Positions 13,998 to 57,158 of a stretch of 64,000 nucleotides of DNA are shown piece after piece. The notes under the pieces were generated by a model that saw nothing but the letters and a program-made list of their open reading frames with translations, did not search any database and was not told where the DNA came from. Made by a program: the position numbers and the translations under genes. Numbering within the stretch: position 1 is the first letter of the stretch; each line of letters begins with the position of its first letter. The stretch is from Rhodococcus sp. Leaf247. Lineage in GTDB: Bacteria > Actinomycetota > Actinomycetes > Mycobacteriales > Mycobacteriaceae. The stretch is taken from NCBI RefSeq assembly GCF_001426185.1, contig NZ_LMRP01000001.1, forward strand, positions 1,900,765-1,964,764. Direction: 5' to 3'.

Positions 13998-14088
13998 TGG
14001 CGGTGGCGGAGAGATTTGAACTCTCGGACGGGGGTTACCCGTCACGCGCTTTCGAGGCGCGCTCCTTAGGCCGCTCGGACACGCCACC
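13998..14088 (-). tRNA. tRNA-Ser (anticodon CGA)
   Basis: The acceptor arm GGTGGCG/CGCCACC, the discriminator G and a genomically encoded CCA are visible. The seven-base anticodon loop CTCGAAA gives anticodon CGA. A long variable arm (GACGGG...CCCGTC) marks it as a class II serine tRNA, and TTCAAAT is present in the T loop. This is one of three serine tRNAs in the window. Confidence 0.96.
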
Positions 14089-30510: not shown

Positions 30511-30550
30511 CTTACTGTTCGATGGCTCACTATTCGGGTGTGCGGGAGGG

Positions 30551-30630
30551 GGTGTGCACACCCCCACCACGAAGCGCACACCCTTTACGGCCGGCTGCAG
30601 AGGGTGTGACGCGCTGGAAGGGGTGTGCAC
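30551..30630 (+). repeat. Nested-hairpin repeat, unit A
   Basis: About 80 bases. The outer arms are GGTGTGCACACCCCC and GGGGTGTGCAC; the inner arms are GCGCACACCCT and AGAGGGTGTG around a CGGCCGGCTGC loop. It is followed by CCCGTGAGCAGCG, shared with units B and C. It belongs to a six-member family in this window. Confidence 0.85.
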
Positions 30631-30670
30631 GTACCGCCCGTGAGCAGCGCGATTGCGTGCGGGTGCTGGA

Positions 30671-30755
30671 GTGGGTGCACACACCCCCACCCCAAAGCGC
30701 ACACCCTCTACGGCCTGCTGCAGAGGGTGCGGAGCGCTGGAAGGGGTGTGCACAC
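30671..30755 (+). repeat. Nested-hairpin repeat, unit B
   Basis: It shares AAGCGCACACCCTCTACGGC, GAGCGCTGGAAGGGGTGTG and the trailing CCCGTGAGCAGCG with unit A. The spacing from unit A is 40 bases of unrelated sequence. Confidence 0.85.
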
Positions 30756-30810
30756 GCCACCCGTGAGCAGCGAGGAGGCCGGAGCTTGCCGACGTCCTCC
30801 CGTGCTGCAA

Positions 30811-30895
30811 TGGGTGTGCACACCCCCCACACTGAAGCGCACACCCCCTACGGTCAGCTGCAAAGGGTGTGGCGCGCTGGAAGGGGTGTGCACAC
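30811..30895 (+). repeat. Nested-hairpin repeat, unit C
   Basis: It starts TGGGTGTGCACACCCCCCAC and ends GGAAGGGGTGTGCACAC. The inner arms are GCGCACACCCC and AAAGGGTGTGGCGC. It is followed by CCCGTGAACAGCG, one change from units A and B. Confidence 0.85.
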
Positions 30896-30950
30896 TCAGC
30901 CCGTGAACAGCGCAGGTCCGCGCGCAGTCCATCCAAGGCCGAGCGCCTCA

Positions 30951-31033
30951 GGTGCACACACCCCCACCCTCGAGCGCACACCCCCTACGGCCAGCTGCAA
31001 AGGGTGTGACTCGCTCGAAACGGTGTGCACACC
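30951..31033 (+). repeat. Nested-hairpin repeat, unit D
   Basis: It starts GGTGCACACACCCCCACC and ends GAAACGGTGTGCACACCC. The inner arms are GCGCACACCCC and AAAGGGTGTGAC. It lies 18 bases downstream of the proline-rich gene stop on the opposite reading direction and is the most divergent copy at its 3' arm. Confidence 0.8.
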
Positions 31034-31050
31034 CACCGCAGTTCCGGCGA

Positions 31051-31677
31051 TCAGGGCGTCGGGGGTGCGCATTCCGCCGTTGCCGGAGCGCCCTCAGGTG
31101 CCTTGCCTGCCGGACCGGCGCCTTCGGGGCCGTGACCTGCAGGACCGTGACCCGCGGGACCGGGGCCTGCGGGACCATGGCCGGCCGGGCCACCCTCAGG
31201 ACCGCATCCGGGTGCAGGCGGAGTCGGCGCGCCCTCGGGCGGTGTCGGCGCATCAGCGGGCGGTGTCGGCGCATCAGCGGGCGGGGCCGGCGCATCAGCG
31301 GGCGGGGCCGGCGCATCAGCGGGCGGGGCCGGAGCATCAGCGGGCGGGGCCGGAGCATCCGCAGGCGGAGTCGGCGCATCAGCGGGCGGGGCCGGCGCAT
31401 CAGCGGGCGGGGCCGGAGCATCAGCAGGCGGAGTCGGCGCACCCTTGGGCGGCGCAGGCGCATCAGCAGGCGGAGTGGGAGCAGCCGCGGGATCGCAGGT
31501 GGCGTCCGGGGCAGCGTCGGGTGCAGGGGCGTCGGGTGTAGCACTTTCCGACACCGGCGGCGCTTCACCGGGACCGTCCGCGGAGGCGGTGCCCACGGCT
31601 CCGAGCAGGAGCCCTCCGGCCAGTACAGCTCCGGCAACCAGTCGGCCGGTCCTTACGCGCATCTTTCGTGTCGACAT
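31051..31677 (-). CDS. Secreted proline-rich repeat protein
   Basis: This 208-residue protein has a signal peptide (MSTRKMRVRTGRLVAGAVLA, hydrophobic core, cleavage near ASADG). About twelve heptad repeats of the type (A/T)PPADAP follow (about residues 70-150), then a Gly/Pro/His-rich tail GHGPAG. Three Cys flank the repeat region. The extended proline-rich form suggests a cell-wall or surface role, but no function is recognised. GAGGGGAC precedes the ATG at 31677. It is divergent from a two-component system, which may regulate it. Confidence 0.78.
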   Translation of the reverse strand: MSTRKMRVRTGRLVAGAVLAGGLLLGAVGTASADGPGEAPPVSESATPDAPAPDAAPDATCDPAAAPTPPADAPAPPKGAPTPPADAPAPPADAPAPPADAPTPPADAPAPPADAPAPPADAPAPPADAPAPPADAPTPPADAPTPPEGAPTPPAPGCGPEGGPAGHGPAGPGPAGHGPAGHGPEGAGPAGKAPEGAPATAECAPPTP

Positions 31678-31742
31678 CTTCGTCCCCTCTGTCGTCGGCA
31701 CCGGGGTGGCGCCGCTCGTGATGTCGACAGTCGGGCGTGGAC

Positions 31743-49554: not shown

Positions 49555-50343
49555 TCAGCTGCCGGTGAAGGTCGCCCGCCGACGCTCGACGAACGATGCC
49601 ATCCCTTCGGCCGCGTCGGACGTCGAGAACAGTGTGCGGATGCCCGGAAGCAGGTGCGCGGCCGCCGCGGCATCCCCTTCGATCAGGCTGCGGTGAGCGG
49701 ACTCGAGCGTCGCCCGCACACCGAGTGGCGCGGCAGTCTCCGCGATGCGGTGTGCGAGCTCGATCGCGCGATCGATCGCCGCCGCGGGATCCGCGCAGAC
49801 CTCCTGCACGAGCCCGATGCGACGGGCCTCCTCCGCGTCGAACTCGTCGCCGGTGAGCATCCACCGCATGGCATTTCCCCAGCCGGTCTCGCGAGGAAAT
49901 CGTAGCGTCGCACCGCCGAACGGATAGATGCCACGCTGAACTTCCATCTGTGAGAAGCGGGTCCCCGCTGCAGCCACTCGGATATCCGACGCCAGCAGCA
50001 GTTCGATGCCCAGGGTCATGCACCACCCGTGCACCGCCGTCACCACCGGAGTGGTCCACGTCCCGTCGAGACGCCACGGATCCCGCCCACCCTCGGCTAC
50101 CGGCAGACTGTTCCCCGTCAGATGCTGGGCGACGTCCACGAGATCGAGACCAGCGGTGAAATGGTCACCGTGGGCGAAGAGCACTCCGGCACGGAGGTCG
50201 TCGTCCCTCTCCAGAAGTCCGTAGGCCGTCGACAATTCTCGGATCATGTCGGTGGTGAAGGAGTTCCGCTTCGACGGCCTGTTCAGGCCGATGTGCAGGA
50301 CGTGCTCGCGCTGCTCGACGGTGATGGTCCGGAAATCGGTCAC
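49555..50343 (-). CDS. Enoyl-CoA hydratase/isomerase family protein
   Basis: This 262-residue crotonase retains both acid positions, in LGIELLLASD and FSQMEVQRGIYPFGGA, with the oxyanion segment HFTAGLDLVDV. It therefore looks like a true hydratase. The start is GTG at 50343. With the other two crotonases in the region, it suggests catabolism of an acyl-CoA substrate not identified here. Confidence 0.88.
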   Translation of the reverse strand: MTDFRTITVEQREHVLHIGLNRPSKRNSFTTDMIRELSTAYGLLERDDDLRAGVLFAHGDHFTAGLDLVDVAQHLTGNSLPVAEGGRDPWRLDGTWTTPVVTAVHGWCMTLGIELLLASDIRVAAAGTRFSQMEVQRGIYPFGGATLRFPRETGWGNAMRWMLTGDEFDAEEARRIGLVQEVCADPAAAIDRAIELAHRIAETAAPLGVRATLESAHRSLIEGDAAAAAHLLPGIRTLFSTSDAAEGMASFVERRRATFTGS

Positions 50344-50424
50344 GACGCACTCCCCACTGACGCGGGGCGGATCCCCGCTCTATGTTCTATCGCATAGTAC
50401 ATGGAACAGGTGGAGCCACACATG

Positions 50425-50464
50425 CAGAAAGCCGGCACCAGGTGATCCTGGTACCGGCTTTCTG
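50425..50464 (-). terminator. Terminator of tRNA-Arg(ACG)
   Basis: CAGAAAGCCGG (50425-50435) and CCGGCTTTCTG (50454-50464), with inner ACCAGG/CCTGGT, form a near-perfect stem around a TGAT loop. It lies directly after the tRNA 3' end on the minus strand and ends in CTTTCTG, so it is an intrinsic terminator. Confidence 0.75.
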
Positions 50465-50540
50465 TGGTGCGCCCGAAGGGATTCGAACCCCTAACCTCCT
50501 GATCCGTAGTCAGGTGCTCTATCCGTTGAGCTACGGGCGC
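50465..50540 (-). tRNA. tRNA-Arg (anticodon ACG)
   Basis: The acceptor GCGCCCG/CGGGCGC, the discriminator A, an encoded CCA and a seven-base loop CTACGGA give anticodon ACG. A34 of this tRNA is the expected target of TadA, encoded at 14.5 kb. It is the only arginine tRNA in the window. Confidence 0.96.
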
Positions 50541-50583
50541 ATGCTGTAGAACTGTTCAGTTGTCTTCCGACCGAAGTCGAAAG

Positions 50584-50673
50584 TGGCGGAGGCGAGAGGA
50601 TTTGAACCTCCGGACCCGGTGAAGGGTCAAGTCATTAGCAGTGACTCCCATTCGGCCGCTCTGGCACGCCTCC
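50584..50673 (-). tRNA. tRNA-Ser (anticodon GCT)
   Basis: The acceptor GGAGGCG/CGCCTCC, discriminator G, encoded CCA, a loop CTGCTAA (anticodon GCT) and a long variable arm identify a class II serine tRNA. It lies 43 bases upstream of tRNA-Arg on the same strand, so the two are likely co-transcribed. Confidence 0.96.
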
Positions 50674-50767
50674 TGGACCTCTTTCGAGGGCACCGGTCCT
50701 TGCGAACCGCCGAGAAGGAAGATTACACACGCCCCGGTGTAGACGCAAAACAGCTGGTGGGGCGGCC

Positions 50768-51490
50768 TTATCGGAGGTGACTGTCGAACCAGTCGAAGAT
50801 CCGTCGCTGAGCGTCGTCGATCGCGTCGTCACCCACTGAATTCCCTGAGCCGTCGTACGGCGCCGACTCCTCGTCTGCCCGGTGCTCGACGCCCGCATAG
50901 CTGACGACGAGTGTCGCCACCGAAGCCTTCCCTACAGCATCCTGGAGCCTCACGACATGGTCGACGGGTGTGCGGGCGTCGTCGCGGCCGTACAGAGCCA
51001 GCCACGGCGCCTTGAGAGAGGGAGCGGCGTCGATGAGGGCACGCGCATCCGCGGTCAACGGCTCCACGATTCCGGGGGCCGCGACGCTCACCGCGGCGCC
51101 CACCGTCCGGTCGGTGGCGACAAGAGCAGCTGCGGTGCCCGCATCGTCGAAACCGATGACCCCGATGCAGTCCGCGGGCACCTCACGCGCGAGCAGCCAC
51201 GTGACGGTCGCATCGAAGTCCTCGAACAGCGGCGTGCCGAACACGTCGTCGTCCCCCGCCGCACGATGGAACAGGTGTGGTGCCGCCACGAGCCAACCGT
51301 CGGCGGCCAGGGCCTTCATGAACTCGACGAGCGCCGGCGGGAAGGTGCGGGCCTCGTGCAGGACGACGATGCCGCCTCGGGCCCTGGTGTCCGGCTCGAA
51401 CGCGGTGAGCGGCACGCGATCGAGCGTCGTGGTGTCCGCCCCCTCGTCGCGCGAGCGGATGGGCGCAGTGTCCTCGATGAGACCCGACAT
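50768..51490 (-). CDS. Dienelactone hydrolase-family protein, Asp in place of Cys
   Basis: This 240-residue alpha/beta hydrolase has a DLH-like layout, IVVLHEARTF near the oxyanion hole and a late YGRDDARTP acid with GVEHRADEE His. At the nucleophile elbow, where DLH has G-x-C-x-G-G, the sequence is GFDDAG, so the Cys is replaced by Asp (D115). The activity may be altered or lost. The ATG at 51490 gives MSGLIED; the longer frame is not needed. It is divergent from the aminotransferase gene. Confidence 0.8.
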   Translation of the reverse strand: MSGLIEDTAPIRSRDEGADTTTLDRVPLTAFEPDTRARGGIVVLHEARTFPPALVEFMKALAADGWLVAAPHLFHRAAGDDDVFGTPLFEDFDATVTWLLAREVPADCIGVIGFDDAGTAAALVATDRTVGAAVSVAAPGIVEPLTADARALIDAAPSLKAPWLALYGRDDARTPVDHVVRLQDAVGKASVATLVVSYAGVEHRADEESAPYDGSGNSVGDDAIDDAQRRIFDWFDSHLR

Positions 51491-51582
51491 GCGTAGAGGG
51501 TAATGGCAGACAATGGCTAAAGCGAGGGCCTTGCCGATGCCGACACCACACTGTGTCCGACCCCGGCGCATAATCGACTGTT

Positions 51583-52650
51583 GTGACCGCACGCACCCGC
51601 CTTGACCTCGACGCCATCCCCGGTTACATCCCCGGGCGCTCCTTTCCCGGCGCGATCAAACTGGCCAGCAACGAGACCACCGCGGGTCCCCTCCCGAGCG
51701 TGGTCGCCGCCATCGCGGAGGCCGCTGCCGGTGTGAACCGCTATCCCGACAACCAGTCGACTCAGCTGGTCGAGGCGCTCGCGGACTTCCTCGGTGTCGC
51801 GTCGACCTCGGTGGCTGCCGGATGCGGATCCGTAGCCCTGTGCCAGGAGCTGGTCCAGATCACCTGCAACGCCGGCGACGAAGTCGTGTTCGGATGGCGC
51901 TCCTTCGAGGCCTACCCCATCGTCACGCTCGTCGCGGGTGCGACCGCCGTCCGCGTGCCGTTGACAGACGATGACGTCCACGACCTCGACGCGATGGCTG
52001 CCGCCGTCACCGACCGCACGCGGTTGATGTTCGTCTGCAATCCCAACAACCCGACCGGCACCGTCGTCGATGCGGCCGCACTGGACCGATTCCTCGATGC
52101 CGTTCCGGACCACATTCTGGTCGTGCTGGACGAGGCGTACTTCGAGTACACCGACCGCACGATCGACGGGGTCGAGATCGGTCGAACCCGACCCAACGTC
52201 GTAGTGCTGCGGACGTTCTCGAAGGCCTATGGCCTCGCCGGACTACGGGTGGGGTATGCCGTCGGAGCACCGTCGATCATCACGTCGATGAAGAAGGTGC
52301 ACACGGCCTTCAGTGTCAGCAGTGTCGCGCAAAGTGCTGCCATAGCCTCCCTGGCAGCATCGGACGAGTTGCTGGCGCGTACGGCAACGGTGACGTCCGA
52401 GCGTTCTCGACTGCGAGACACGCTGCGCGGGTTCGGGTTCCACGTTCCCGACTCGTCCGCGAACTTCGTATGGATACCGCTCGGCGCATCCTCCGGCGAC
52501 TTCTCGGCTGCCTCGACCGAAGCCGGCGTCATCGTGCGCGCCTACGGTGACGACGGCGTGCGCATCACCGTCGGCGACCCGCACGAGAACGACGCGTTCC
52601 TCGAGTTCGCCTCGGCGGCCGCTGAGCAGTTCGCTCCGGTCACGTCGTAG
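51583..52650 (+). CDS. HisC/aromatic aminotransferase-like PLP enzyme
   Basis: This 355-residue class I/II aminotransferase of the histidinol-phosphate branch contains LASNETTAGPLPSV, VNRYPDNQS, CNPNNPTGTV, DEAYFEY and the PLP lysine in TFSKAYGLAGLRVGY. It may act on histidinol phosphate or on aromatic 2-oxo acids, as the Pat paralogue does in actinobacteria; no his genes are adjacent. The start is GTG. The 3' flank is a repeat cluster. Confidence 0.88.
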   Translation: MTARTRLDLDAIPGYIPGRSFPGAIKLASNETTAGPLPSVVAAIAEAAAGVNRYPDNQSTQLVEALADFLGVASTSVAAGCGSVALCQELVQITCNAGDEVVFGWRSFEAYPIVTLVAGATAVRVPLTDDDVHDLDAMAAAVTDRTRLMFVCNPNNPTGTVVDAAALDRFLDAVPDHILVVLDEAYFEYTDRTIDGVEIGRTRPNVVVLRTFSKAYGLAGLRVGYAVGAPSIITSMKKVHTAFSVSSVAQSAAIASLAASDELLARTATVTSERSRLRDTLRGFGFHVPDSSANFVWIPLGASSGDFSAASTEAGVIVRAYGDDGVRITVGDPHENDAFLEFASAAAEQFAPVTS

Positions 52651-52673
52651 CGCTGGGGTTCGCGGCTGCTGCT

Positions 52674-52759
52674 GGGGGTGTACACACCTCTAGTGGTGGG
52701 TTCACACCCTCAACGGCCGGCGGGTAAGGGTGTGCGGTCACCGGAAGGGGTGCACACAC
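52674..52759 (+). repeat. Nested-hairpin repeat, unit E (second locus)
   Basis: It starts GGGGGTGTACACACCTC and ends GGAAGGGGTGCACACACC. It shares the family core (CACACCCTCAACGGCCGGC, then GGGTGTGCGG) with unit F and with units A-D 22 kb upstream. Confidence 0.8.
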
Positions 52760-52813
52760 CCCGTACCGCACGGTCGGGTGCACCCAAACGGCCTGCCGAC
52801 GTGGCACCTGCAA

Positions 52814-52897
52814 CCGGTGTGCACACCCCCAGCGTTGGGCGCACACCCTCTACGGCCGGCGGGGAGAAGTGTGCGGCCACCAGAAGGGGTGCACACC
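52814..52897 (+). repeat. Nested-hairpin repeat, unit F (second locus)
   Basis: It starts CCGGTGTGCACACCCCC, has GGGCGCACACCCTCTACGGC, and ends CAGAAGGGGTGCACACCC. It is followed at about 52920 by a partial element CGCACACACCCCCAGC. The cluster occupies most of the 296-base gap between the aminotransferase and the esterase genes. Confidence 0.8.
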
Positions 52898-52946
52898 CAG
52901 TGCCGCACGCTCGATGCGCCGCACACACCCCCAGCAGCGCGAGGAG

Positions 52947-53975
52947 CTAGAGCCCCAGGGCCCTGGAGACGACGGGCCAGGAGTTGTGCATCTCGTCCTG
53001 CCAGTATCTCCACGAGTGCGTGCCGTACGGCTTGAAAACGATGGTGGCGGGGACGCCTGCGGTGCGCAGCGTGTCCGCGAAGCCGGTGGTGCAGATGTTT
53101 GCTGCAGCTTCGAGCGGTCCGCCGACGGTGAGCGCTTCGATGACGCTCTCGCCGAACCCACCGGCCGCCTCGTAGGGGCCGGGGAACCCGTTACCCGTCG
53201 ACAGGTAGATCTGCTTGCCGCGCAAGGCTTCGACATGGTTGCTGGGGTCGTTGTCCGCCCACGCGGGGTCGGAGTTGGGGCCCCACATATTGGTGGCGTC
53301 ACCGCCGGTGGACCCCACGGTCGCTCGTACGGCGTTCTTGGTCTCGTTGGAGCGATTGTCGTAGCACCCGCTGAAGCCGGCTATTCCGGTGTACAGATCC
53401 GGATGCTTGGTCAGCAGGTTCATCGCACCCTGGGCGCCCATGGACAAGCCCATCAGCGAGTTGATGCCGTTGCCGTCGAAACGTGCATCGAGGAGAGGAG
53501 GGAGCTCGGACGTCAGGAACGTCTCCCACTTGTTGAGTCCCAGAATCGGATCGGACTGCTGCCAGTCCGCGTAGTAGCTGCCTCGGCCGCCGACGGGCAG
53601 GACCACGTTGACAGCCTTGTCGGCGAAGAAGGAGACGACGTCGGTCTTCTGCGTCCACGTGCTCTCGGTGTAGTTCGACTCCTCGCCGGCACTGACGCCG
53701 TCGAGCATGTACAGCGTCGGGCGGGGTGCGGACCGGTCCGCGGGCAGCAGCACCTGAACCTGGATCTCGCGACTCATCGCCGGGGAGAACACGGACAGGA
53801 CGGCGCGACGATCGGTCTCCATCGTGACCGAGACGATGCGCGGTGCGGACGACGCTGCCGGCTGGCTCGGGAAGGACGACCCCGGAACGCTCGGCTCGGC
53901 GGTCGCGGTGGGTGCGGCACCCAGGACAGCCATCGCCGTGAGACAACCGGCGGCGAGCAGAGCGGGACGTCGCAT
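52947..53975 (-). CDS. Secreted antigen-85-type esterase / mycolyltransferase-like
   Basis: This 342-residue protein has a signal peptide (MRRPALLAAGCLTAMAVLGA, cleavage near ATA-EPS). The esterase D/Ag85 fold shows LYMLDGVSAGEESNY, PVGGRGSYYADW, the nucleophile GLSMGAQGA and the C-terminal His in GTHSWRYW. Ag85 enzymes transfer mycolates to trehalose or arabinogalactan, but related esterases differ, so the specificity is open. AAAGG precedes the ATG at 53975. It converges on the repeat cluster. Confidence 0.87.
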   Translation of the reverse strand: MRRPALLAAGCLTAMAVLGAAPTATAEPSVPGSSFPSQPAASSAPRIVSVTMETDRRAVLSVFSPAMSREIQVQVLLPADRSAPRPTLYMLDGVSAGEESNYTESTWTQKTDVVSFFADKAVNVVLPVGGRGSYYADWQQSDPILGLNKWETFLTSELPPLLDARFDGNGINSLMGLSMGAQGAMNLLTKHPDLYTGIAGFSGCYDNRSNETKNAVRATVGSTGGDATNMWGPNSDPAWADNDPSNHVEALRGKQIYLSTGNGFPGPYEAAGGFGESVIEALTVGGPLEAAANICTTGFADTLRTAGVPATIVFKPYGTHSWRYWQDEMHNSWPVVSRALGL

Positions 53976-54516
53976 CGACCGAACCTTTCGGGAAAGAACG
54001 TGGCCGAGGGCCACACGTGCTGAATATCGGTGCGTCGGACCGACCGTCCATGGAACGCAGCCCGTACCAACCTACTGGCTGGTAGGCAGAGCCGACTCCA
54101 CGTCCAATCGACTGCTTGCGGTCTTGTCAGCGGTCACAACGCACGTGCAGCCGCTGCGTTCGGTCCGCAAGAACCCCTGAACCATACCGCGAGACTGTTT
54201 ACAGCGCCGAAACACACTTCATTGATCGAAACCGGTGTTGTGATATTTCATGAATCAGTCGGTACTCAATTGTGTGGAAGCAAGACAATTGCGGACGAAT
54301 CGGCAGGTGCGTTTGTCTCAACATCCATCATGCGCCGATGTCAGCGCAGGTCACGGTCGGTGCGCACGAGGTGGGCAACCTCACCGAACAATGTGCCGAC
54401 TCATACCGGCACTCTCGGTTCGGTATCTCGAAACAATCTCGAATCCCGTTAATGATTGTTACGGTACCCCGAGAACATGCACGACTGACATGAACTACAC
54501 AGTCATGGGGGGATCG
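53976..54516. other. 541-base intergenic region upstream of a PucR-type gene
   Basis: No gene is supported. It is less GC-rich than its surroundings. CCTAC-TGGCTG-GTAGG (54071-54086) is a partial palindrome about 95 bases upstream of the divergent esterase start and might be an operator. A GATTGTTACGGTACC stretch lies before the PucR gene. Short frames here lack ribosome binding sites and family matches. Confidence 0.45.
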
Positions 54517-55770
54517 ATGACCACACCGAAGACAGCTCCGAGTCCGCTTCCGGGCCACGTGGAGGCCGGCCTGATCGCCGGTACCAAGGGCAACACGCTC
54601 GCGCTGAACGATCTCCGGGGAGTGGCTCGTCACCTGGTCGATCACTTCGCGGCCAACACCCCCTGCGGGACATTGCCGGGCGAACTGCTCCACGGCGACG
54701 TCACCGAGGTGACGGTCAAGTGCCTCGGACTGGCGGTGCGCATGCTCGAGTCGGGCAAGACTCCGTCCGACAAGGACCTGGCGAACGTCCACGACGCTGC
54801 AGCGCGCTGGGCTCGCGAGGGAGTGCCGCTCCGGTCGATCCTCCGCGCGTACCACGACGGTTTCCGATTCGGACTCACTCTTGTCAGCCGCGACGCCAAG
54901 ACCCACAACTCGGAGAACCTGACCGAGAACTCCCTCGTGCTGGTGACCCTCCTGGAAGCCGTCACGACCGAGGTCTCGATCGCCTACGTCGAGGAGTACC
55001 GGTCGGTCGCCTCCGAACATCACACGGCGACACATACTTTGGTCACCACGCTGCTCAGCGGTGGTCAGAACGCCACGTCCACCGCGCAGCAGTGCGGGAT
55101 CGACCTCGCCGACGAGTACCTGGTCATCGCCTTGCACTTCCCCCAGCATCCCGACGAGTCGAATCCCGTCGTCGACCGCACGGTCTCTGCGCGCCGCAAG
55201 CTCCGACGCATCCAGGCGGAGCTGGCCACCACATGCGGCAAGTCCCCGCTGGCTCTGCTCAGCACCGAGGGCGGCACGGTACTTCTGCCCGCGCCCCGTG
55301 AGCGGGAGTGGATCGACACCCTGATCGAGCGGCTCTCTCGCGCCGGCGAAATCCCCATCACCGCCACCGTGACGACGGCGGAGCGCGAGGACATCCCCGG
55401 CGCGGCGGAGCACGTCTACGAACTGCTTTCTCTCACACGGCAGTTGGGTCGGCCGTCCGGTATGTACCGGACCGAGGACCTTGTGCTGGAGTACCAGCTG
55501 ACACGGCCCGGTCGTGGCAGGGAGCAACTGCTGCGCGCCCTCGGACCGTTGGACGACGCACCGGAACTGCTGGACACGCTCACCTCCTACATCGGCCACG
55601 AACTGAACAGGCAGCGCACCGCGCGTCACCTGTTCGTCCACGCCAACACCGTCGACTACCGCCTCAAGCGCATCGGGCAGCTCACCGGCATCGATCCGAG
55701 CGTCCCGTCGGGACTGCGGTATCTCCAGGCAGCCATCGTGGCGCGCGGACTCGCCGCGAAGCAGAAGTAG
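54517..55770 (+). CDS. PucR/CdaR-type transcriptional regulator
   Basis: This 417-residue regulator has an N-terminal helical sensing region (about 25-170), a middle CdaR-type domain and a C-terminal PucR helix-turn-helix (ELNRQRTARHLFVHANTVDY, then RLKRIGQLTG). GGGGGATCG precedes the ATG at 54517; in-frame ATGs at 54490 and 54505 are also possible. Its target is not evident; it precedes a tRNA and lies opposite a lactate-monooxygenase-like gene. Confidence 0.86.
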   Translation: MTTPKTAPSPLPGHVEAGLIAGTKGNTLALNDLRGVARHLVDHFAANTPCGTLPGELLHGDVTEVTVKCLGLAVRMLESGKTPSDKDLANVHDAAARWAREGVPLRSILRAYHDGFRFGLTLVSRDAKTHNSENLTENSLVLVTLLEAVTTEVSIAYVEEYRSVASEHHTATHTLVTTLLSGGQNATSTAQQCGIDLADEYLVIALHFPQHPDESNPVVDRTVSARRKLRRIQAELATTCGKSPLALLSTEGGTVLLPAPREREWIDTLIERLSRAGEIPITATVTTAEREDIPGAAEHVYELLSLTRQLGRPSGMYRTEDLVLEYQLTRPGRGREQLLRALGPLDDAPELLDTLTSYIGHELNRQRTARHLFVHANTVDYRLKRIGQLTGIDPSVPSGLRYLQAAIVARGLAAKQK

Positions 55771-55794
55771 CAGTACCGGCAACACGTACGACTC

Positions 55795-55822
55795 GAGCCC
55801 CCCACCTGCAGGTGGGGGGCTC
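55795..55822. terminator. Bidirectional terminator between PucR and tRNA-Ser(TGA)
   Basis: GAGCCCCCCACCTG and CAGGTGGGGGGCTC form a perfect 14-base inverted repeat with no loop. It separates the plus-strand regulator and the minus-strand tRNA, starting 7 bases after the tRNA CCA end, so both may use it. Confidence 0.75.
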
Positions 55823-55828
55823 GTTCGT

Positions 55829-55918
55829 TGGCGGAAGCGGAGGGATTTGAACCCACGGACGCTTTTACACGTCTCTCGCTTTCAAGGCGAGTGCATTAGG
55901 CCGCTCTGCCACGCTTCC
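55829..55918 (-). tRNA. tRNA-Ser (anticodon TGA)
   Basis: The acceptor GGAAGCG/CGCTTCC, discriminator G, encoded CCA, a loop CTTGAAA (anticodon TGA) and a long variable arm are seen. Together with CGA and GCT in this window, this covers most serine codons except those read by GGA. Confidence 0.96.
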
Positions 55919-55982
55919 GCATCACATACTAATGGGCCGCCCGCTGCGGTCGACGTCGGCCGTCACGATCACGGGCCCGGCG

Positions 55983-57158
55983 TCAGGCGCGATGCAGGAT
56001 GGACCGGTCGACGTCGGCGACGGACGCCAACCCGGCGAGACCCATCGTGATGTCCAGGTCGCCGAGGAGGCACCGCAGCGCGTGCACGACGCCGTCGCGG
56101 CCGGCCAGACCGAGGCCGTAGACCCAGGGCCTGCCGTAGAGAACGGCGTCGGCACCGAGCGCCAGGGCGACCAGAACATCGGCGCCCGATCGGATGCCCG
56201 AGTCCAGCAGCACCGTCGCCCTGTCCCCCACGGCGGCGGCGACGGGTTCGAGCGCGTCCAGTGCGGCGATCGAGTTGTCCACCTGTCGTCCACCGTGATT
56301 GGAGACGAGTACGCCGTCGGCACCGGAGTCGACGGCAGCGCGGGCGTCATCGGGGTGCAGCACTCCCTTGACGACGACGGGAAGATGCGTCCATTCCTTG
56401 ACTCGCGCGATGTCCGCGAAGCGCAGAGTGTGATTGCCGAACATGCCGACCCACGTGAGGACGGCGATCTGCAGAGCTTCCGCACTCTCCTCGGGTGGGG
56501 CCGCCAGACGAGAGCGGAACACCGGATCGGACAGATAGTTTGCGATGCCCTCGGCGCGCAGGAACGGGAGGTGGCCCAGCGTCAGATCCCTAGGACGCCA
56601 TCCGATTCCGGGGGTGTCCGCGGTGACGACGATGACCTTCGCTCCGGATGCCGTCGCCCGGCGGACCAGCGATTCGGCCACGCCCTCGTCGGACGGCCAG
56701 TACAGCTGGTACCACCAGTTGTCGCCGGACTCGGCCGCGACGTCCTCCATCGGTGTCGACGACGCTGTCGACAGGACCGACCCGATACCGAGTTCGGCTG
56801 CGGCAGAACCGACTGCAGGTTCCGCCGCTGGATGCACCATGCCGAGCACACCTACCGGTGCGGTGAGGATCGGCGCCGCCAGGGGGGTACCGAGCACCGT
56901 GACCGACAGGTCCCGGGCGTCGGGAGCGCTGGCTCCGCGCCACATCCGGGGAACGATCCTGTGCGCGGCGAACGCGTCGACATTGGCCCGAGCGGTGCGT
57001 TCGGTGGACGCACTTCCGGCGATGTAGGCGAAGGACGCCGCGGACAACGTCTCGCGGGCACGGTCCTCGAGACCGTCGGCCGTCATGGGGAGATCGGGCG
57101 AGAGGCCACCGAGCCCGGTCAGGTAGATCTCGTTCTGGAAGTTGCCGAAAGTGCTCAC
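55983..57158 (-). CDS. Lactate 2-monooxygenase-like FMN enzyme
   Basis: This 391-residue FMN-dependent alpha-hydroxy acid oxidase has YIAGSASTERTARANVDAF, GWRPRDLTLGHLPFL, the catalytic His and Arg in LVSNHGGRQVDNS and DSGIRSGADVLVALALG. It closely follows the layout of mycobacterial lactate monooxygenase, which converts lactate to acetate and CO2. The GTG at 57158 is chosen; a TTG two codons upstream is possible. Confidence 0.87.
   Translation of the reverse strand: MSTFGNFQNEIYLTGLGGLSPDLPMTADGLEDRARETLSAASFAYIAGSASTERTARANVDAFAAHRIVPRMWRGASAPDARDLSVTVLGTPLAAPILTAPVGVLGMVHPAAEPAVGSAAAELGIGSVLSTASSTPMEDVAAESGDNWWYQLYWPSDEGVAESLVRRATASGAKVIVVTADTPGIGWRPRDLTLGHLPFLRAEGIANYLSDPVFRSRLAAPPEESAEALQIAVLTWVGMFGNHTLRFADIARVKEWTHLPVVVKGVLHPDDARAAVDSGADGVLVSNHGGRQVDNSIAALDALEPVAAAVGDRATVLLDSGIRSGADVLVALALGADAVLYGRPWVYGLGLAGRDGVVHALRCLLGDLDITMGLAGLASVADVDRSILHRA

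Follow-up and report, generated by a model that had tools for sequence, protein, structure and literature searches.

REP-like palindromic repeats built of four short sites lie at gene 3' ends in the genome of Rhodococcus sp. Leaf247

Introduction

The 296 bp between the stop codons of two convergent genes of Rhodococcus sp. Leaf247 carry two copies of a near-palindrome, and similar copies recur 22 kb away in the same window (the whole 64,000-nt stretch of DNA that was analysed). What are these repeats, how did they come to lie behind these genes, and are they useful parts of the genome or parasites of it? An earlier note, made from the sequence of the window, had assigned both clusters to one family and had argued for a dispersed element rather than local duplication. 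Here we describe the build, genome-wide distribution, history and conservation of the family, and weigh what could have kept it in place.

Results

Two clusters of one family in the window

The focal cluster lies between a class I/II aminotransferase gene (51583-52650, plus strand; PF00155) and a putative esterase gene (52947-54014, minus strand; PF00756). A repeat finder and a covariance model both recovered what the earlier note had described between these convergent genes, namely two units of ~88 bp and a terminal fragment. The first unit (52675-52762) is 88 bp long, contains four CACACC/GGTGTG sites and scores 80.9 bits in cmsearch; the second (52814-52901) scores 81.2 bits, both units being on the minus strand, and the linker between them (52763-52813) contains a small palindrome (52771-52790). 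The fragment is a terminal half-motif (about 52922-52938), of which 52925-52938 is an inverted copy of the left cluster end (52668-52681), such that the cluster is bounded by a perfect 14-bp inverted repeat. The direct repeat measures 97 nt with 78% identity and a spacing of 139 (52661-52757 and 52800-52896). The closest named relatives of the adjoining esterase are found in Rhodococcus sp. UNC23MFCrub1.1 (84% identity) and in Rhodococcoides corynebacterioides and R. kroppenstedtii (71-74%), and we accordingly regard the genome as that of a Rhodococcus of the Rhodococcoides type.

The cluster 22 kb away proved to be of the same family, as had been supposed, the covariance model finding four more units there (30549-30635, 30672-30758, 30811-30898 and 30949-31035, all on the minus strand). 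Adjacent to it is a Pro/Ala-rich ORF of 216 aa (31051-31701, minus strand) with a signal-like N-terminus (by eye), many PADAP-type repeats and no Pfam match, whose stop codon (31051) is 15 bp from the cluster. The model scores of the six window units are partly by construction, all six being in the 44-unit seed; BLAST with the focal DNA alone, run prior to any model, returned 45 genome matches, among them the first cluster. Within the window, the half-site CACACC-N14-CACACC with at most one mismatch has five matches, all in the two clusters (0.6 expected; none of 100 shuffles reaches five), and the family model finds just one other match up to E = 1, a chance-like one of 15.1 bits.

A rigid four-site unit in 23 clusters

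Mapping all copies over the genome (4.53 Mb in five contigs), as the earlier note had proposed, gave 69 distinct units; they form 23 clusters, each holding one to seven of them. The family model was built on an alignment of 44 units over 88 positions (42 windows, minus two chance-like ones, plus the four first-cluster units added by hand), and its 140 strand-matches at E up to 0.1 correspond to these 69 distinct places after the two weakest (E of 0.007 and 0.06) were left out. Clusters are mostly head-to-tail, and successive units start 86-219 bp apart, often 123-127 or 136-140 bp.

The unit is an 88-bp near-palindrome with four CACACC-type sites, two forward and two inverted (->-> <-<-), at a rigid spacing of 20, 26 and 20 bp; in the 88-bp consensus the sites start at 8 and 28 and, inverted, at 54 and 74. 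Over all clusters, one exact CACACC follows another at a distance of 20 in 65 cases and in at most five cases at any other distance from 17 to 23. When one mismatch is allowed, further peaks appear at 18 and 22, which are expected because of the CA repeat in the motif. The distance from CACACC to GGTGTG is 26 in 37 cases and 46 in 55 cases. All 65 exact occurrences of the half-site CACACC-N14-CACACC in the genome are inside the 23 clusters (a reversed control matched once), and 50 of the 55 genome matches of GGTGTGCACAC are in clusters, counting as inside one match pair 40 bp past the last unit of a cluster. The letters between the sites are looser than the site letters themselves: in 128 half-units, taken from the 64 of 69 units that are 88 bp long, each column of the six-letter sites holds 1.0-1.9 bits, and of the 14 intervening letters 13 hold 0.3-1.2 bits and one holds 1.8.

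Of the earlier claim that the element is dispersed rather than locally duplicated, dispersal stood, with 69 units in 23 clusters and unit-free sites in relatives, but the either/or did not. Mean identity is 0.80 within a cluster, 0.64 between clusters of one genome and 0.67 between orthologous clusters, and 53 of the 69 units have their nearest neighbour in the same cluster. Since copies of the same cluster are closest to each other, local duplication occurred besides dispersal.

Dispersal before the sister split and later local expansion

At E <= 0.001 some match is present in 18 of 37 genomes of the genus, and three of the genomes are rich in units, namely the genome studied here (119 strand-matches), its sister G022 (46) and G043 (45), the rest having at most six. 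Two units each occupy the focal place in UNC23MFCrub1.1 and in G022, and in both genomes the stop codons are 250 bp apart. The comparison of flanks that had been suggested for finding empty sites was successful here, as the model finds no unit at this place in R. kroppenstedtii and in two R. corynebacterioides records: in R. kroppenstedtii and one R. corynebacterioides record the two stop codons share a CTAG, and in the second R. corynebacterioides record 16 bp lie between them. The target-site duplication that was to be looked for at the same time was not seen at the focal site by eye when compared with these unit-free sites.

An orthologous cluster is present in G022 for 15 of the 23 clusters, and in ten of these 15 the number of units differs (at L040/L084, seven versus two units). 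Except for L070, the comparison with G022 also covered the clusters for which no such orthologue is known there: the G022 stretches for L034, L043, L045, L046 and L071 contain no unit (for L034 and L046 only one flank matched), and that for L068 contains one weak match of 24 bits. A 16th cluster, L044, has an orthologue in G043 and no unit in G022. At this site (L095, L096), two units are seen in G043 and several hundred bp of other DNA in G022. Best-strand scores below 60 bits were found for 5 of the 69 own units and for 15 of the 31 units of G022. Judged by these shared positions, most clusters predate the split from the sister species. Orthologous clusters, differing unit numbers and the likeness within clusters together point to an older dispersal that was followed by local expansion and homogenisation.

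In the more distant genome G015, one unit (L090, 2499-2586) lies near a gene that is 67% DNA-identical to a neighbour of the first cluster, and the place of the first cluster may on this basis be older than the sister split.

Location behind genes

With gene calls from a home-made codon-usage caller, all 23 clusters are located 3' of a gene, eight between convergent and 15 between tandem genes, with none between divergent genes after one hand correction. The raw result of the caller was 8 convergent, 14 same-direction and 1 divergent; the divergent case is the first cluster of the window (L036), which is an error of the caller, since the minus-strand 216-aa ORF ends at 31051. All 15 tandem clusters are nearer to the upstream stop than to the downstream start (p = 3e-5). 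The absence of divergent places (0/23) compares with 35 of 107 gaps of at least 100 bp sampled in G022 (p = 1e-4) and with 50 of all 335 gene pairs sampled there (p = 0.02). The nearest stop codon is at most 68 bp away in 22 of the 23 clusters, the exception being L070, the sole own cluster that is far from called genes (227 and 570 bp). The L071 cluster follows a tRNA-Glu gene at a distance of 61 bp and is 3 bp away from the stop codon of a convergent gene. In the other genomes, for which a rough caller was used, 3 of 31 stretches were called divergent (L078, L084, L090) and two tandem ones were nearer to the gene start (L075, L082); the own orthologues of L078, L084, L075 and L082 are at gene 3' ends.

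As to the cell-surface or secreted proteins that the earlier note had remarked on beside both clusters of the window, an association that may be chance, the 29 neighbour proteins that were scanned (a count that excludes the one beside L125, which is from another genome) share no common function, and no transposase is among them. They include cytosolic-type proteins (an aminotransferase, an rRNA methylase, an AMP-ligase, TetR and IclR regulators and a mycothiol transferase) as well as permeases, transporters and exported-looking proteins.

A post-hoc observation concerns the position of the clusters along contig C1 of G022, where 19 cluster places (1.09-4.50 Mb) are nearer to 2.3 Mb than chance (p = 0.002). 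In 20 samples the GC skew is mostly negative on one side of 2.3 Mb and then becomes mostly positive, a turn that is likely the replication origin. The eight places of clusters absent from G022 showed no nearness to it (p = 0.62), giving a combined, likewise post-hoc, p of 0.013.

Conservation of site letters and not of pairing

To compare rates of change, the best pair of units was taken at each of 12 orthologous loci, a choice that makes multi-unit clusters look more alike; differences were counted at 25 of 288 site positions and at 140 of 768 other unit positions (p = 9e-5), that is, the motif letters changed half as fast as the other unit letters. This count covers 12 of the 15 shared loci and leaves out L067/L077 (no equal-length pair), L036/L078 and L031/L089, all three of which are poorly conserved. 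The three loci with one unit of equal length in both genomes show differences at 31 of 264 unit letters, versus 234 of 635 fourfold sites, the latter taken from one adjoining gene each (p = 3e-15). The fourth single-unit locus, L067/L077, with an identity of 0.65 and unequal length, does not fit constraint, and the shared clusters L031/L089 and L036/L078, with mean identities of 0.49 and 0.56, have hardly any common sequence. With an identity of 0.69, the focal locus itself ranks with the least conserved; in the genes on either side of it, 46% and 53% of fourfold sites differ. These comparisons suggest that the sites are likely retained by selection at many shared loci, although not at all of them.

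Retained letters in a palindromic motif can be read in two ways, as hairpins and dimer sites predict similar letters. Comparison between genera does not distinguish a protein site from a hairpin, because both arms carry matching other letters, as they do in single G022 units. Pairing within the family can be compared with its expectation: stem pairing is 80.3% as observed and 81.5% after shuffling of the partners (497 of 500 shuffles as high), and changes on both sides number 26 as observed and 38.5 when shuffled (495 of 500 as high). No compensatory change was found in the paired arms, all five measures lying below the shuffled mean, and the covariation test for an RNA hairpin as the selected feature was thus negative. 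The absence of compensatory change speaks more for protein sites on double-stranded DNA than for an RNA hairpin under selection. As far as the aligned letters tell, it is the site letters that are kept and not the pairing, and we favour the reading that the units would serve as sites for a protein on double-stranded DNA.

Terminators or selfish elements as alternatives

A different explanation for the location behind stop codons is a role in RNA: the units would be transcribed and would fold into transcription terminators or hairpins at mRNA 3' ends, selection would act on the RNA, and the clusters would be redundant terminators. The distance of at most 68 bp to a stop codon in 22 of 23 clusters would suit this role, and on both strands the two focal units form folds that hardly any dinucleotide shuffle equals (0, 0, 2 and 0 of 200; z from -2.9 to -4.6), as palindromes generally fold well. 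Furthermore, the model strand folds better in 50 of the 69 units, and by eye a short hairpin directly follows the stop in G022 at the position of the own cluster L034, and the single units L073 and L080 of G022 are strong stems between convergent genes. However, in addition to the lack of compensatory change, no T-run terminator was found between the focal stop codons (52651-52946; a scan of 50000-56000 gave two sites, both near 50370), the units at L071 and at the L044 site of G043 stand behind a separate hairpin (by eye), and the rigid 20-bp outer sites are not needed for termination. In 10 of the 15 tandem clusters the better fold is that of the strand of the upstream gene, a share that points clearly to neither reading. 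Bidirectional intrinsic terminators, in which a G+C-rich stem is followed by a T-run, are likewise hairpin-capable DNA behind the stop codons of convergent genes; the focal cluster differs from them in having no T-run, and the family in having up to seven units per cluster and in conserving site letters and not pairing. Taking both sides into account, we consider selection as terminators unlikely. A search of the window against Rfam gave only three tRNAs at gathering score and no known family for the units. A tRNA-Ser at 13998-14088 was called by ARAGORN and is below the Rfam gathering score.

Likewise unlikely, in our view, is a purely selfish REPIN- or MITE-like element that is moved in trans and is found at gene ends through purging of insertions elsewhere. 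Such an element would be expected to be patchy, as is the case with 3 of 37 congeners rich in units, and would account for unit-free sites in relatives, neighbours of unrelated function and the recurrence of this architecture, with different letters, in a few further genera. In contrast to this expectation, the shared units at most compared loci changed more slowly than fourfold sites, with the site letters slowest of all. The usual mover could also be rejected: the RAYT-type Y1 transposase (PF01797) has no match in the own genome, while 5 of 14 control genomes have matches. Half-sites flanking a lone gene were likewise looked for and rejected, all 65 being in clusters. One 901-bp cluster query gave no match in plasmid and phage records, and the four-site pattern gave none in viral contigs. 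DUF222/HNH genes were considered as a partner because one such gene adjoins a similar unit in G248, and were dismissed, as none of the three DUF222 genes of the own genome is beside a cluster, the nearest being ~4 kb away.

Local minisatellites or GC-rich low-complexity DNA of independent origin are hardly credible, as the GC-rich letters and the repeat period that many clusters show (123-127 or 136-140 bp) are outweighed by full-length family matches down to E = 7e-19, the rigid internal geometry and reversed-pattern controls near zero, and a chance or low-complexity origin is refuted by the genome map and the reversed-pattern and shuffle controls.

Relation to known repeats and wider occurrence

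Several known types of repeat share features with the Rhodococcus family. MIRUs, which occur in the same bacterial order, are dispersed intergenic tandem clusters with a lineage-variable number of units, and so are the clusters described here; MIRU units carry small ORFs with overlapping start and stop. The Rhodococcus unit differs in being a palindromic four-site element. MITEs are small non-coding inverted-repeat elements that have terminal inverted repeats and a target-site duplication. The Rhodococcus family resembles them in its small inverted-repeat units and in the unit-free sites of relatives. The focal cluster has 14-bp inverted ends, and inspection by eye showed no target-site duplication there; nor did a parent insertion sequence come to light.

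The units are also short, dispersed, intergenic and clustered palindromes like the REP, BIME and REPIN sequences portrayed in PMC3116915, PMC3733652 and PMC2817692, and like REPINs they are an inverted doublet of two palindromic halves. According to PMC3733652, most REPs lie downstream of coding regions, where the adjoining genes are convergent or point in the same direction, and the Rhodococcus clusters have the same downstream, non-divergent location (0/23 divergent after the one hand correction). The family differs from REPs as follows: First, a RAYT (Y1_Tnp) was not found in the own genome. Second, no GTAG or CGTC tag was present at the unit ends on inspection of the 44-row alignment; the ends are of GGTGTGC type, and GTAG-like letters are found in the unit only inside the central stem. 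Third, the 69 units are below the more than 100 copies per genome that are usual for REPs according to PMC2817692. At last, the unit is 88 bp long, with four CACACC-type sites at rigid spacing, and mostly forms head-to-tail clusters. Since the RAYT and the tag are both lacking, REP-like is a better name for the family than REP. PMC12306157 gives counts of REP-like palindromes for three Actinomycetota genomes. The general type of repeat is known; the four-site build is unusual. A search by title and abstract, weak in that it covered mostly non-subscription literature, found no published description of such a Rhodococcus repeat.

Across 397 genomes of the order, the family model matches four at E <= 1e-5, one of them being the own genome. 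When the letters are left free, the four-site pattern matches five, in five genera and three families and again with the own genome included, compared with two for the reversed control. Six stretches from G323 and G281, placed with the rough caller, comprise four convergent and two tandem cases, the latter nearer to the upstream stop. The copies in G248 are part of a dispersed repeat of ~630 bp and those in G115 are part of a tandem repeat, and both may be something else. In G248, the ~630-bp repeat with its four-site palindrome was seen at L113, L119, L125 and L129, the L125 copy being beside a DUF222 gene. It is conceivable, though we think it improbable, that actinobacteria have a class of elements defined by geometry, in which four ACACC-type sites (->-> <-<-) with outer pairs 20 bp apart and an inner gap of either 20 or 10 bases, lengths that differ by one helical turn, would carry genus-specific letters and be bound by a co-evolving protein that once spread them, the elements now acting as gene-end boundaries.

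Discussion

We interpret the repeats between the aminotransferase and esterase genes as members of a lineage-specific family of dispersed intergenic palindromic repeats, REP/BIME-like but with a new architecture, which would be kept as protein-binding elements at gene ends; we give this reading a probability of about 0.5. The units would have spread in an ancestor by means of an agent, and would have been retained because a sequence-specific protein binds their four sites on double-stranded DNA. Bound units could then mark or insulate gene 3' ends, whether through termination, supercoiling or a nucleoid boundary, and the clusters would grow and shrink by unequal exchange or slippage. It counts against this reading that the searches of the genome and of the cluster neighbours brought up no mover.

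REP-like repeats are best known together with a dedicated RAYT transposase, and the Rhodococcus repeats are an actinobacterial family of similar habit without a RAYT and with signs of purifying selection at several shared loci. The family would be a direct test case for whether such repeats are parasites or useful parts, and its rigid four-site unit provides a defined DNA bait with which the protein involved may be found.
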